A DNA stretch of 64,000 nt from Candidatus Fimimorpha faecalis (lineage in GTDB: Bacteria > Bacillota > Clostridia > Lachnospirales > Lachnospiraceae). Shown here piece by piece: positions 29,259 through 33,069 of this stretch. The position numbers and the translations under genes were made by a program. Where the stretch lies: the NCBI GenBank assembly GCA_018712075.1, contig DVHN01000001.1, positions 23,653-87,652 of the forward strand, in the 5' to 3' direction. Every line of letters begins with the position of its first letter. Within the stretch, counting starts at the first letter, position 1. The notes under the pieces are model-generated. The model was not told where the DNA came from and did not search any database. It saw only the letters and a list, made by a program, of their open reading frames with translations.

Positions 29259-30353
29259 TTGAAAGAACAGAGCTATCAAGAACAAATTGACATAAAAAAT
29301 ACTTATAAACTGAGAGAATTAGTTTCCACGCTCCCGCCATTTGCAAAAAGTTATTTTCGTGGTATTGAGACGAGAACTTCTTCACGAACGAGAATTGCTT
29401 ATGCTTATGATTTGAATATATTTTTCCGCTTCCTTCATAAAATGAATCCAATTTTTCAGAAAATAGAAGTGAAAGAAATTACACTTGCACAGTTGGAACA
29501 ATTGAGTCCTATGGATATAGAAGAATATTTGGACTATGTGAAAGTATATGAAGATGAAGAACAGCAGATTCATACGAATAAAGAGCGTGGGATTATGCGA
29601 AAGCTATCTTCCTTAAAATCCTTTTACAGTTATTTTTATCGAAACGAGTCAATTAAGTATAATCCAGTTGAGTTAGTGCAAACACCTAAATTTCACGAAA
29701 AGGCGATTATTCGTTTGGATTTGGATGAAATGGAAGCGTTATTGGATCAGGTGGATCATGGAAGCAAATTGACGGAAAAACAAAAAGTATTCCATCAGCG
29801 GACACGTATTCGAGATCTTGCAATTATGACATTATTACTGGGGACTGGAATTCGTGTTTCGGAATGCGTGGGACTAAATTTAGAAGATGTAGATTTAAAA
29901 AATGATGGAATTAAAGTTCATAGAAAAGGAGGAAAGGAAGTTATTGTTTATTTTGGCGATGAAGTAGAGCTTGCACTATTAGATTATTTGGAACAGCGAA
30001 ATCAGATTGTTGCACAAGAAGGAGAGGAACATGCACTTTTCTTATCCCTTCAAAGGAGAAGGATTGGAGTCCGGGCGGTAGAAAATCTTGTAAAGAAATA
30101 TTCCCGTGCAGTAACTACGATGAAAAATATTACGCCTCATAAATTGCGGAGTACTTATGGTACAAACTTATATAGAGAAACAGGAGATATTTATCTTGTA
30201 GCAGATGTATTAGGACATGCAGATGTCAATACAACGAAAAAACATTATGCTGCTATTGATGATGATAGAAGAAAACAGGCGAGAAATATTGTCAAACTTA
30301 GAAAAACTTTATCGGATGGAGGAAAGACTCCTGCTTCTACAGGCGGTGAGTAA
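29259..30353 (+). CDS. Tyrosine recombinase (XerC/D-like), TTG start
   Basis: GTGIRVSECVGL, HKLRSTYGT, GHADVNTTKKHYA catalytic boxes (R...HxxR...H...Y). Confidence 0.9.
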   Translation: MKEQSYQEQIDIKNTYKLRELVSTLPPFAKSYFRGIETRTSSRTRIAYAYDLNIFFRFLHKMNPIFQKIEVKEITLAQLEQLSPMDIEEYLDYVKVYEDEEQQIHTNKERGIMRKLSSLKSFYSYFYRNESIKYNPVELVQTPKFHEKAIIRLDLDEMEALLDQVDHGSKLTEKQKVFHQRTRIRDLAIMTLLLGTGIRVSECVGLNLEDVDLKNDGIKVHRKGGKEVIVYFGDEVELALLDYLEQRNQIVAQEGEEHALFLSLQRRRIGVRAVENLVKKYSRAVTTMKNITPHKLRSTYGTNLYRETGDIYLVADVLGHADVNTTKKHYAAIDDDRRKQARNIVKLRKTLSDGGKTPASTGGE

Positions 30354-30408: not shown

Positions 30409-30437
30409 GCACATTTGCTGCCTGGGACACATAGAAT
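30409..30437 (+). promoter_or_regulatory. Candidate sigma-E-type promoter for sigK
   Basis: -10-like CATAGAAT (30430-30437; remembered sigma-E -10 CATACAAT) 14 bp after GCACATT. Confidence 0.4.
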
Positions 30438-30444
30438 ATAATAA

Positions 30445-30750
30445 ATGGCGTTACAGGTGGCTTTTTCATTGAAAACATTTCCAAAACCGTTGAGTGCATC
30501 AGAAGAAAGAGAATGCCTGGAGCGATTCAGGCAAGGAGATCAAAGAGCAAGAGAATTATTAATTGAACGAAATATGCGTCTTGTTGCTCATATTATAAAG
30601 AAGTATAACTTTGCAGAACAAGAAATGGAAGATTTGCTTTCAATAGGAACCATTGGTCTTATCAAAGCAGTAAATACATTTGATGTAGAGAGAGGAAATA
30701 AGTTGTCCAGTTATGCAGCAAAATGTATTGATAATGCTATCCTATCATAA
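30445..30750 (+). CDS. sigK: sigK N-terminal segment (sigma-K exon-like half upstream of the skin element); translation may start at TTG 30469
   Basis: FPKPLSASEERECLERFRQGDQRARELLIERNMRLVAHIIKKY...EDLLSIGTIGLIKAVNTFDVERGNKLSSYAAKCIDN; stops just after the recombination site. Confidence 0.92.
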   Translation: MALQVAFSLKTFPKPLSASEERECLERFRQGDQRARELLIERNMRLVAHIIKKYNFAEQEMEDLLSIGTIGLIKAVNTFDVERGNKLSSYAAKCIDNAILS

Positions 30751-31002
30751 AAAAACAAAGATTGTATTACAAAGATTTTAAAAAGATTTAAAGAAAACGT
30801 AAGAAATTATATATTGACTTTTAAAGGCAGTATGATAATATGGCAGTGATGCAGAAAAAAACAAAAAAGCAATATCAATCCAATTAAAAAATCGTTTATT
30901 TCTTCCATTTTTGCAAACGCATAAAGAAATGGTAATAAAATTACTTTATTTGAATACCATAAATGTGACTAAAATAAAAGAAAAAGATAATGGAGGCATG
31001 GT

Positions 31003-31278
31003 ATGAGCTTAAGCGTAGAAAAGAAAAAGACTACAAGTAGAGAACTCAGAAGAAATTATAAAATTCTTGGAATGGATCCTCAGTTGATTCAGAACGATTT
31101 GGGCTTTACGGAACAAATGTTGCTAGATACATTAAATGTAACATCTTCCACAACTGGAGTAAATATATGGAAGCTTCGTGATTATATGAATGATAAAATC
31201 AAGGAACAGGGGAAAAAACCAGCCCCATATACGATTTTAAAATATAATATTCGTCATCGTTATAAAAAAACATGGTAA
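31003..31278 (+). CDS. DUF2316-like small protein inside the skin element
   Basis: MSLSVEKKKTTSRELRRNYKILGMDPQLIQNDLGFTEQMLLDTLN...WKLRDYMNDKIKEQGKKPAPYTIL resembles DUF2316 from memory; RBS tggagg. Confidence 0.65.
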   Translation: MSLSVEKKKTTSRELRRNYKILGMDPQLIQNDLGFTEQMLLDTLNVTSSTTGVNIWKLRDYMNDKIKEQGKKPAPYTILKYNIRHRYKKTW

Positions 31279-31453
31279 AATAAGAAAGAGATTATTAAGA
31301 AATCAGCAAAGGAAAAATTTCTTTTTTGTATTTCAACCATTGGATTAAGATTTGTTTTGAATGTGGTGTTTCTGCAATATAAAAGATAAATAAATTTTAG
31401 ATAAGGATGTCAGAAATTCTATCATAATATTAGTAAGAAAAAGAGACTAAAAA

Positions 31454-31533
31454 ACTAAAAAAAATGATGTGTGGGACAATGATTTCATCTATTTGTTTTT
31501 GCTTAATCGTTATTCCGTACATCATTTTTTAGT
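31454..31533. terminator. Long imperfect hairpin between the two skin genes
   Basis: actaaaaaaaatgatgtgtgggacaatga ... tcgttattccgtacatcattttttagt. Confidence 0.55.
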
Positions 31534-31683
31534 AAGTAAAATAAGAAATTTTATTTTTTGTAAAGAATTTTCTGTAAGGAAGATTGTCCTTTTTGTAATA
31601 CAGTTAAAAATATTCATAAAGTAGAAGAGAAAGAGAATATGCTATTGGGAAGGAATCCAAAATCGGTATCAGGAGGAGCCATT

Positions 31684-32637
31684 GTGATTGCAATTTATTC
31701 TCGTAAGTCGAAATTTACAGGAAAAGGAGAGAGTATAGAAAATCAAATTGAACTTTGCAAGCAATATATTAAAATGCATTGGAAAGAGGATGTGGAAAAT
31801 CAAATTGCAATTTATGAAGACGAAGGATTTTCAGGAAAAACGTTGGAACGGCCTAAATTTAAAGATATGATGAAGGATGCTAGAAAGGGAAAACTGTCCA
31901 GTATTATTGTATATCGGTTAGATCGAATTAGCAGGAATATTGGGGATTTCGCTCAATTGATTGATCAGTTAAATGATATGAATATTGCATTTGTGTCTAT
32001 TAAAGAGCAATTTGATACATCTTCCCCAATGGGAAGGGCAATGATGTACATTGCGTCTGTATTTTCTCAGTTAGAGAGGGAAACGATTGCAGAACGAATA
32101 CAAGATAATATGAAAGAGCTGGCAAAAACAGGAAGGTGGCTTGGCGGAATTACACCGACAGGTTATCAATCAAAGGAAGTTTCCAGTATTACTGATCAAG
32201 GAAAATTAAAAAAGACCTATCAATTGGAGCAAATTCCAGGGGAAATAACGACAGTAAAAACAATTTATCAAGTTTTTTTGAAAACAACTTCCTTTAAAGA
32301 AACTGAACAGTTTTTGCTTGAACATAGTTACAGGACAAAAAATGGCAAAAACTTTTCCCGATTTACAATTAAAGGAATATTGTCTAATCCAGTTTATTTA
32401 AATGCGGATCAGGATGCATGGAATTATTTTCAAGAAAATGAAGCAATGATATTTGCACAGAAAGAACAGTTTAATGGGAAAAATGGAATTATGGCATACA
32501 ATCGTACATTGCAGAGAGCTGGAAAAACAACCCAAATACGAGATATAAAGGAATGGATTATCGCAATTGGAGCTCATAAAGGAATCATATACGGAAAAGA
32601 CTGGATAAAAGTACAAACAATATTAAAAGAAAATTAA
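31684..32637 (+). CDS. Serine site-specific recombinase, SpoIVCA-like, short (no zinc-ribbon/coiled-coil C-terminus)
   Basis: IAIYSRKSKFTGKGESIENQIELC, IVYRLDRISRNIGDF, SPMGRAMMYIASVFSQLERETIAERI; AGGAGGAG RBS before GTG 31684; stop follows GKDWIKVQTILKEN. Confidence 0.9.
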   Translation: MIAIYSRKSKFTGKGESIENQIELCKQYIKMHWKEDVENQIAIYEDEGFSGKTLERPKFKDMMKDARKGKLSSIIVYRLDRISRNIGDFAQLIDQLNDMNIAFVSIKEQFDTSSPMGRAMMYIASVFSQLERETIAERIQDNMKELAKTGRWLGGITPTGYQSKEVSSITDQGKLKKTYQLEQIPGEITTVKTIYQVFLKTTSFKETEQFLLEHSYRTKNGKNFSRFTIKGILSNPVYLNADQDAWNYFQENEAMIFAQKEQFNGKNGIMAYNRTLQRAGKTTQIRDIKEWIIAIGAHKGIIYGKDWIKVQTILKEN

Positions 32638-32712
32638 TTCTTCCGATCGTGGAAAAAATAGTTTAAAATAAGCGAATAGGAAGCTTTCTTGTAATTCCAT
32701 GTGAGGATAGCT

Positions 32713-33069
32713 AATGAAATCCTAATGATGCTGCGTTCAGAAAAGAAAAGAAGTCGGGAAATTAGTTTATATGAACCAATTGGTACCGATAAAGAGGGCA
32801 ATGAGATTAATTTAATGGATATTGTTGAAATGGATGAAAAAGAAATATCAGAAATGATTGCATATAAAGAGGATGTCAAGCAGCTTTATCAAGCATTAAA
32901 AACTTGCTTAAAGGAGAAAGAGAGAACGGTTTTATGTTTGAGATACGGCCTATTTGGTTCTAAAGAATATACGCAGCGAGAAATCGGGGATCAGCTTGGG
33001 ATTTCTCGCTCTTACGTAAGCCGAATTGAAAAAGGAGCATTAATAAAACTAAAAAATTATTTAAAATAA
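32713..33069 (+). CDS. sigK: sigK C-terminal segment (sigma regions 3-4), expressed after excision
   Basis: NEILMMLRSEKKRSREISLYEPIGTDKEGNEINLMDIVE...REIGDQLGISRSYVSRIEKGAL. Confidence 0.92.
   Translation, partial: NEILMMLRSEKKRSREISLYEPIGTDKEGNEINLMDIVEMDEKEISEMIAYKEDVKQLYQALKTCLKEKERTVLCLRYGLFGSKEYTQREIGDQLGISRSYVSRIEKGALIKLKNYLK

Follow-up and report, generated by a model that had tools for sequence, protein, structure and literature searches.

In Bacillus subtilis, sigK is interrupted at a short shared repeat by the skin element, a 48-kb defective prophage with its own serine recombinase, and excision of this element restores sigK in the mother cell. The recombinase, SpoIVCA, works with a recombination directionality factor (RDF), the 64-aa protein Skr encoded next to it, and the unit attL-skr-spoIVCA-attR still works when moved to another prophage (PMC6957869). 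The SigK of this organism has a pro-sequence. In Clostridioides difficile, skinCd interrupts a sigK without pro-sequence; its serine recombinase CD1231 needs the RDF CD1234 for excision, and excision is a main control (PMC5025042). It is integrated in a different region of sigK from the B. subtilis element (PMC6957869) and in the opposite orientation (PMC5025042), and in 2016 skin was described as something that 'remains an exception in clostridia' (PMC5025042). The gin element of Bacillus cereus ATCC10987, finally, is a non-phage element in another sporulation gene (gerE, 28.6 kb), excised by serine recombinase with three recombinases and a need for GirX, thus showing that phage-derived genes are not required (PMC5595907).

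The locus described here, part of a 64-kb stretch of DNA (the window) from the Lachnospiraceae genome G000, clearly resembles these systems (G-numbers denote compared genomes, L-numbers compared loci). As in B. subtilis, sigK is interrupted at a short shared repeat by an element with its own serine recombinase, and as in C. difficile, SigK probably has no pro-sequence. The element, however, measures only 2 kb, as opposed to the much larger skin and gin elements. It carries no phage-derived genes but only a gene for a DUF2316 protein and the recombinase, which lacks its C-terminal region. There is also no RDF-like gene of the kind known in B. subtilis and C. difficile, although the definition of a skin does not strictly require one. 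The skin class itself is known; the novelty lies in the anatomy of the element, namely a trimmed recombinase together with a missing RDF-like gene. We lean toward the view that the insert is a vestigial skin element working as one-way, self-splicing DNA, which the 317-aa recombinase would excise without an RDF. The features of the locus, in window coordinates, are as follows.

30409 to 30437, plus strand: SigE-type promoter before sigK by consensus match only (GCACATT, 14 nt, CATAGAAT)
30445 onward, plus strand: sigK 5' open frame as listed, from ATG
30455 to 30460, plus strand: probable sigK ribosome-binding site, AGGTGG
30469 to 30735, plus strand: 5' half of sigK with start TTG (Pfam Sigma70_r2, NCBIfam SigK)
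30732 to 30736: left TAATG copy, crossover expected at the central AA (30733-30734), TAAA variant in G004
30736 to 32715: skin element, 1,980 bp (30735-32714 in the frame of the earlier note), exact base ambiguous within TAATG
30736 to 30748: left inner att arm, GCTATCCTATCAT, conserved in the att sites of the whole skin group
31003 to 31278, plus strand: DUF2316 protein, 91 aa, conserved cargo (PF10078, E=2.5e-21)
31389 to 31567: site of the deleted candidate RDF gene (BLASTN collinearity, G000 654-832 versus G004 666-1171)
31684 to 32637, plus strand: 317-aa serine recombinase reduced to its catalytic and recombinase domains
32637 to 32698, plus strand: decayed recombinase C-terminal tail remnant, 62 bp, preceding the right att arm
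32699 to 32711: right inner att arm, ATGTGAGGATAGC, conserved in the att sites of the whole skin group
32712 to 32716: right TAATG copy
32716 to 33069, plus strand: 3' half of sigK (Sigma70_r4, SigK models)

An earlier note on this DNA had read the locus as a minimal skin element with its own recombinase, and direct reading bears out its geometry to the base: the two sigK halves lie on the same strand (5' half ending in ...TGT ATT GAT AAT, 3' half starting with GAA ATC CTA ATG), and the TAATG copies at 30732-30736 and 32712-32716 are spaced by exactly 1,980 bp. The halves join in frame. The joined protein (214 aa from ATG 30445) scores 297.8 bits against NCBIfam SigK NF004471 (cut-off 252), well above the SigE models (223.5) and slightly under the stricter TIGR02846 cut-off (292.2 versus 298.65), a shortfall that probably stems from the short N-terminus. 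The single frame drawn by the note from 30445 is thus SigK according to the models, but its start is probably TTG 30469, which gives 206 aa without pro-sequence. Homology to the N-terminus in congeners begins at about LKTFPKP, and the ribosome-binding site read upstream is conserved in G004 and G002. The split sigK is the sole sigK in G000 (3.21 Mb, 99.95% complete), where a second intact copy, whose presence would speak against a skin, was sought and none was found. The next-best match, at 43% identity, is a SigE-like full-length gene, and the joined sigK is absent from the assembly, as expected for vegetative DNA. The genome also carries the sporulation gene spoIVA and is therefore a plausible spore former.

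Congeners add two kinds of evidence. Related genomes were searched for an intact sigK, as the note had suggested, and in five of the eight genomes of the genus, each a different species, the gene is uninterrupted at exactly this point, reading ...ga[tc]aat|ga[ag]at... in agreement with the predicted joined gene. In the sister genomes G004 and G002, inserts of 2,666 and 1,962 bp sit at the same sigK base as in G000 (the 3' half of sigK is 98% identical in G004 and 89% in G002). The G000 assembly is a 200-contig draft, which might raise the suspicion of an assembly artefact or a chance pair of sigma-factor fragments; yet the halves join into one SigK, and three species share the split base and collinear elements, leaving this explanation hardly credible. 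Skin membership, as the note proposed, is in sum the best reading and is backed by the site, the restored frame and the empty sites in congeners, and likewise by spoIVA, purifying selection and the single recombinase discussed below.

The att sites point to the position of the crossover. The note had predicted the circle junction AGGATAGC-TAAT-GCTATCCT, which we recover as claimed, and had placed the crossover at its asymmetric central AA. This placement gains support from G004, whose left site reads TAAA and whose right site reads TAAT. The TAAA makes the dyad a perfect 9+9 around AA. With a crossover past the AA it would amount to a missense change; AAT (Asn) is restored only by one at or before the AA. 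In most relatives the att design is (AGCCG)TTAGGTGAGGATAGC-AAAT-GCTATCCTATCACAA(CGGCT). A profile result suggesting that the outer arm AGCCG...CGGCT was lost in elements with cut-back recombinases was set aside, because a full-length group with CGCAT...ATGCG also scores low; nor does the self-symmetry of the outer arm cleanly separate full-length from cut-back groups, and its loss in the latter is at most hinted at. The predicted attP core (AGGATAGCNAATGMTATCCT) had no match in IMG/VR. Among phage integrases, that of Terrisporobacter phage TPELB_ph1 (PP197244.1) came closest (40% over 96%), and the phage is a candidate for a sigK-integrating relative. At attR, 19 of the 29 sigK elements checked (L026, L066, L139, L148, L149, L150 and others) have a recombinase stop TGA that straddles the crossover, the core supplying T as its final base and the sigK 3' half opening with GA. 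Circularization would turn this stop into TGC, and in elements with both ends known the frame then usually stays open for another 20-67 codons; excision would thus change the C-terminus of the recombinase itself.

The recombinase is where the element departs most from its relatives. Encoded near one end of the element, it probably starts at GTG 31684, with AGGAGG at 31671-31676. The protein has a catalytic Resolvase domain (PF00239, E=5.4e-37), with invariant active-site residues, and a complete Recombinase domain (PF07508, E=3e-16, profile 3-102 of 102), and the integrases of phiC31 and Bxb1 are among its best fold matches. A large serine recombinase would further have a zinc ribbon with an inserted coiled coil, but no PF13408 is present in the 317-aa protein and the chain ends at the recombinase domain. 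Its closest relatives mostly measure 525-661 aa. The one among them that was scanned with Pfam, from L066, carries Zn_ribbon_recom (PF13408), and in the other relatives compared the zinc-ribbon and coiled-coil region is visible by alignment. Lacrimispora-like elements such as L066 (2,654 bp) and L088 (2,673 bp) make this difference particularly clear: they are nearly as small, occupy the same insertion point and encode a related recombinase, but theirs is full-length with a zinc ribbon (by Pfam for L066) and they have kept the candidate RDF introduced below.

The sister elements show how this state was reached. The recombinase of G002 is also cut back, its C-terminal region being absent. That of G004 is an intermediate state of C-terminal loss: at about 450 aa it has no PF13408 match, the zinc cysteines are gone and the coiled-coil region is shortened, while the C-terminal tail is kept. 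A fossil of that same tail is found in G000 in the 75 bp 3' of the recombinase, the place of the C-terminal domain remnant in the sister. Here a frame ..IVEKIV*.. faces IVEKVVWDG.. in G004, with 38 of 62 bases identical in register, a score reached by none of 2,000 dinucleotide shuffles and none of 1,729 window segments. With the tail remnant still in place before attR, the deletion of the C-terminal region must have been internal. Relative to G004, the G000 element shows two deletions of ~330 bp, one covering the C-terminal domain and the other the relic of the candidate RDF gene described below. The note described the insert as carrying only a small ORF and a serine recombinase, but neither the stretch between these two genes nor the one after the recombinase is random filler. 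It overlooked that the enzyme had shed its zinc ribbon and coiled coil, that the usual RDF-like gene was missing and that sister elements preserve the intermediate state.

Clustering of the small ORFs of complete elements yielded a conserved family of 56-88 aa, whose gene stands either next to attL, in minus orientation, or near the recombinase. Position, size and conservation make it a candidate RDF, since both its size and its place fit an RDF such as Skr (64 aa, adjoining its recombinase; PMC6957869). It hit no Pfam family above cut-off, and comparison with solved structures, the SPbeta RDF fused in 9dxd among them, gave no match. The candidate occurs in all 16 elements that encode a recombinase with a long C-terminal region and in none of the five whose recombinase is cut back to two domains (G000, G002, G212, G258 and G697), a count that excludes many elements with a complete C-terminus lying on fragments without a left end. 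The exact probability of this split is 1/20,349 (4.9e-5) if elements are independent, and it overstates the evidence as they are phylogenetically non-independent. Three of the 16 (G031, G194 and G189) were left out when the profile was built, and the others score 22-107 bits in leave-one-out. No match to the profile was found in the window element or in the G000 genome. In G004, on the other hand, the profile recovers a relic of 240 bp (80 codons, minus strand) without the usual start codon, and its place corresponds to the ~0.4 kb between the two genes of G000. The candidate RDF gene thus disappears in step with the C-terminal region.

The DUF2316 protein could be thought to have taken over, making this an ordinary small skin in which it replaced the usual RDF and still controls excision. 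It is the only other gene of the element, small and rich in Lys/Arg, each of the three elements found in the genus has it, strong selection acts on it (dN/dS about 0.06; 98% identical in G004, 90% in G002), and RDFs share no common sequence (PMC5025042). Its distribution fits such a role poorly: it occurs in 3 of 200 genomes of the family, G212, which was sampled among those of similar completeness, not being one of them, and it did not turn up among the ORFs of two other cut-back elements (G212 and G258). In G004, moreover, it stands next to the RDF relic, and the coiled coil on which RDFs are thought to act (PMC3783163) is absent. A fold predicted from two sequences (pLDDT 65) gave no structural match. 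The DUF2316 protein is thus probably not the RDF, and we hold this account to be unlikely, though it is the strongest competitor to RDF-free excision by the trimmed recombinase.

Serine integrases work one way through their coiled coil, and reversal takes place only with an RDF. In the Listeria phage LI integrase, recombination of attP with attB depends on the coiled coil, which also blocks attL x attR. Deleting it abolishes integration, but the shortened enzyme recombines attL and attR sites carried by a single molecule with no RDF, as the wild type cannot (PMC3783163). The same kind of domain loss is seen here, except that those coiled-coil and zinc-ribbon deletions are laboratory constructs whereas the present deletion is natural and reaches the whole zinc-ribbon region. 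When the whole zinc-ribbon domain of the Listeria enzyme was deleted, att binding became ~25-fold weaker, and the section consulted reports no recombination by that deletion (PMC3783163).

In the evolutionary course that we propose, the recombinase would have deleted its zinc-ribbon and coiled-coil region, freeing attL x attR from autoinhibition, after which the RDF gene would have decayed. Loss of the coiled coil would cost little, because a skin never needs integration and has both its sites on a single molecule, 2 kb from each other; it would also make an RDF useless, which matches the joint loss of both. In the mother cell, the 317-aa recombinase would bind the inner arms TGAGGATAGC and GCTATCCT, pair attL with the attR of that chromosome and cut at the central AA, releasing a 1,980-bp circle and restoring sigK in frame. 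With the coiled coil lost, no directionality factor would be needed for this step. Besides the RDF-like gene, which is gone, the element would probably have given up the capacity to integrate again.

Since the lost domain matters for DNA binding in relatives, one could also imagine a dying skin, whose recombinase no longer excises in a lineage that has lost SigK activity or sporulation. The recombinase domain indeed evolved faster on the G000 branch, with 21 nonsynonymous to 14 synonymous changes. The catalytic domain, on the contrary, shows 4 to 18 on that same branch, the recombinase as a whole has a dN/dS of 0.12-0.18, and both sigK halves are under strong selection (0.02-0.07). Taken together with that of the DUF2316 gene, this pattern argues that the parts are not dead. 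Moreover, neither the att arms nor the frame are damaged, the genome has spoIVA, and other genera show this cut-back form too, again with unbroken frames. A dying element is thus improbable, clearly more so than a takeover by the DUF2316 protein. A third possibility, excision in trans by another recombinase of the genome with the resident one as a relic, could draw on the fact that serine recombinases are common in such genomes. In G000, however, only the resident recombinase matches the skin type at E <= 1e-22, and the purifying selection on its catalytic domain also speaks against a relic; we give this possibility very little weight. An active resident enzyme excising its own element would remain our preferred reading.

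As SigK is made without pro-sequence, excision and SigE-driven transcription are proposed as the main switches of its activity, and both are likely to act as such. The SigE-type promoter before sigK is conserved at the corresponding position of both G004 and G002 (CATAGAAT/CATATAAT) and is equalled by a fraction of 0.017-0.030 of dinucleotide shuffles. Candidates before the DUF2316 gene do not outperform shuffles, and sigma-70 sites in this region are as numerous as in shuffled sequence. We infer that transcription of the recombinase limits excision to the mother cell, a restriction that the promoter search does not support, as no convincing SigE promoter precedes that gene (0.41 of shuffles equal the best candidate). 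The gene immediately upstream of sigK, at 29259-30353, encodes a tyrosine recombinase (Phage_integrase, SAM-like domain) that is probably a host XerC/D-like enzyme and unrelated.

Relatives of the recombinase are found just upstream of the 3' half of sigK in many Clostridia and Negativicutes, including Oscillibacter, Flavonifractor, Faecalibacterium, Lacrimispora and Sporomusa, across Lachnospiraceae, Oscillospiraceae and Sporomusaceae. Among 200 sampled genomes of the family, 132 have SigK/SigE-type matches, about 11 of these with the split-sigK pattern. Contrary to the 'exception' view of the skinCd authors in 2016, skin elements are therefore not rare in Clostridia. Complete elements measured from 1.96 to 25.4 kb, those of G000 and G002 being the smallest found here. 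The open-access literature yielded no description of skins this small or with such a recombinase. A survey of Bacillus reportedly carried out by Abe et al. (2013) is cited in PMC5595907.

In a tree of the catalytic and recombinase domains, with G004 and G750 among the cut-back rows, the cut-back recombinases come from four genera on separate branches. Bootstrap trees with one origin amount to 0%, and the cut-back form needs four changes, at least two of which are forced by well-supported branches (G212 and G258 sit on long branches and their positions are unsure). At the threshold applied, a scan covering 393 genomes of the class turned up no further recombinase this short. Whether skins repeatedly evolve into excision-only 'DNA introns', with the three species of the genus as successive stages, is to us an evenly balanced question. 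Coiled coil and RDF would seem to have been lost jointly on several occasions, from an element left with no task other than its own exit. If true, these elements would supply compact excision enzymes of natural origin that need no RDF, with which the basis of directionality could be tested, and a two-gene system that is small enough for complete reconstruction, and they would show a prophage-like element turning into a developmental switch.

A few further observations concern other members of the group. In another family of the class, L167, L175, L178 and L181 (G511, G356, G327 and G442) have shorter recombinases with frames of 453-455 aa, possibly another stage of C-terminal reduction. At L207 and L208, from two species of genus g494, the cut-back recombinases have extra insertions inside their domains and the inner att arms are altered. 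The cargo of other skins (L139, L140, L153 and L082), judged by eye, consists of metabolic and transport genes rather than phage genes, such as a MATE-type transporter with an ABC ATPase (G212), a PurH-like protein (G258) and an alpha-galactosidase-like protein (G275, L082). Such cargo would be dropped from the genome of the mother cell.
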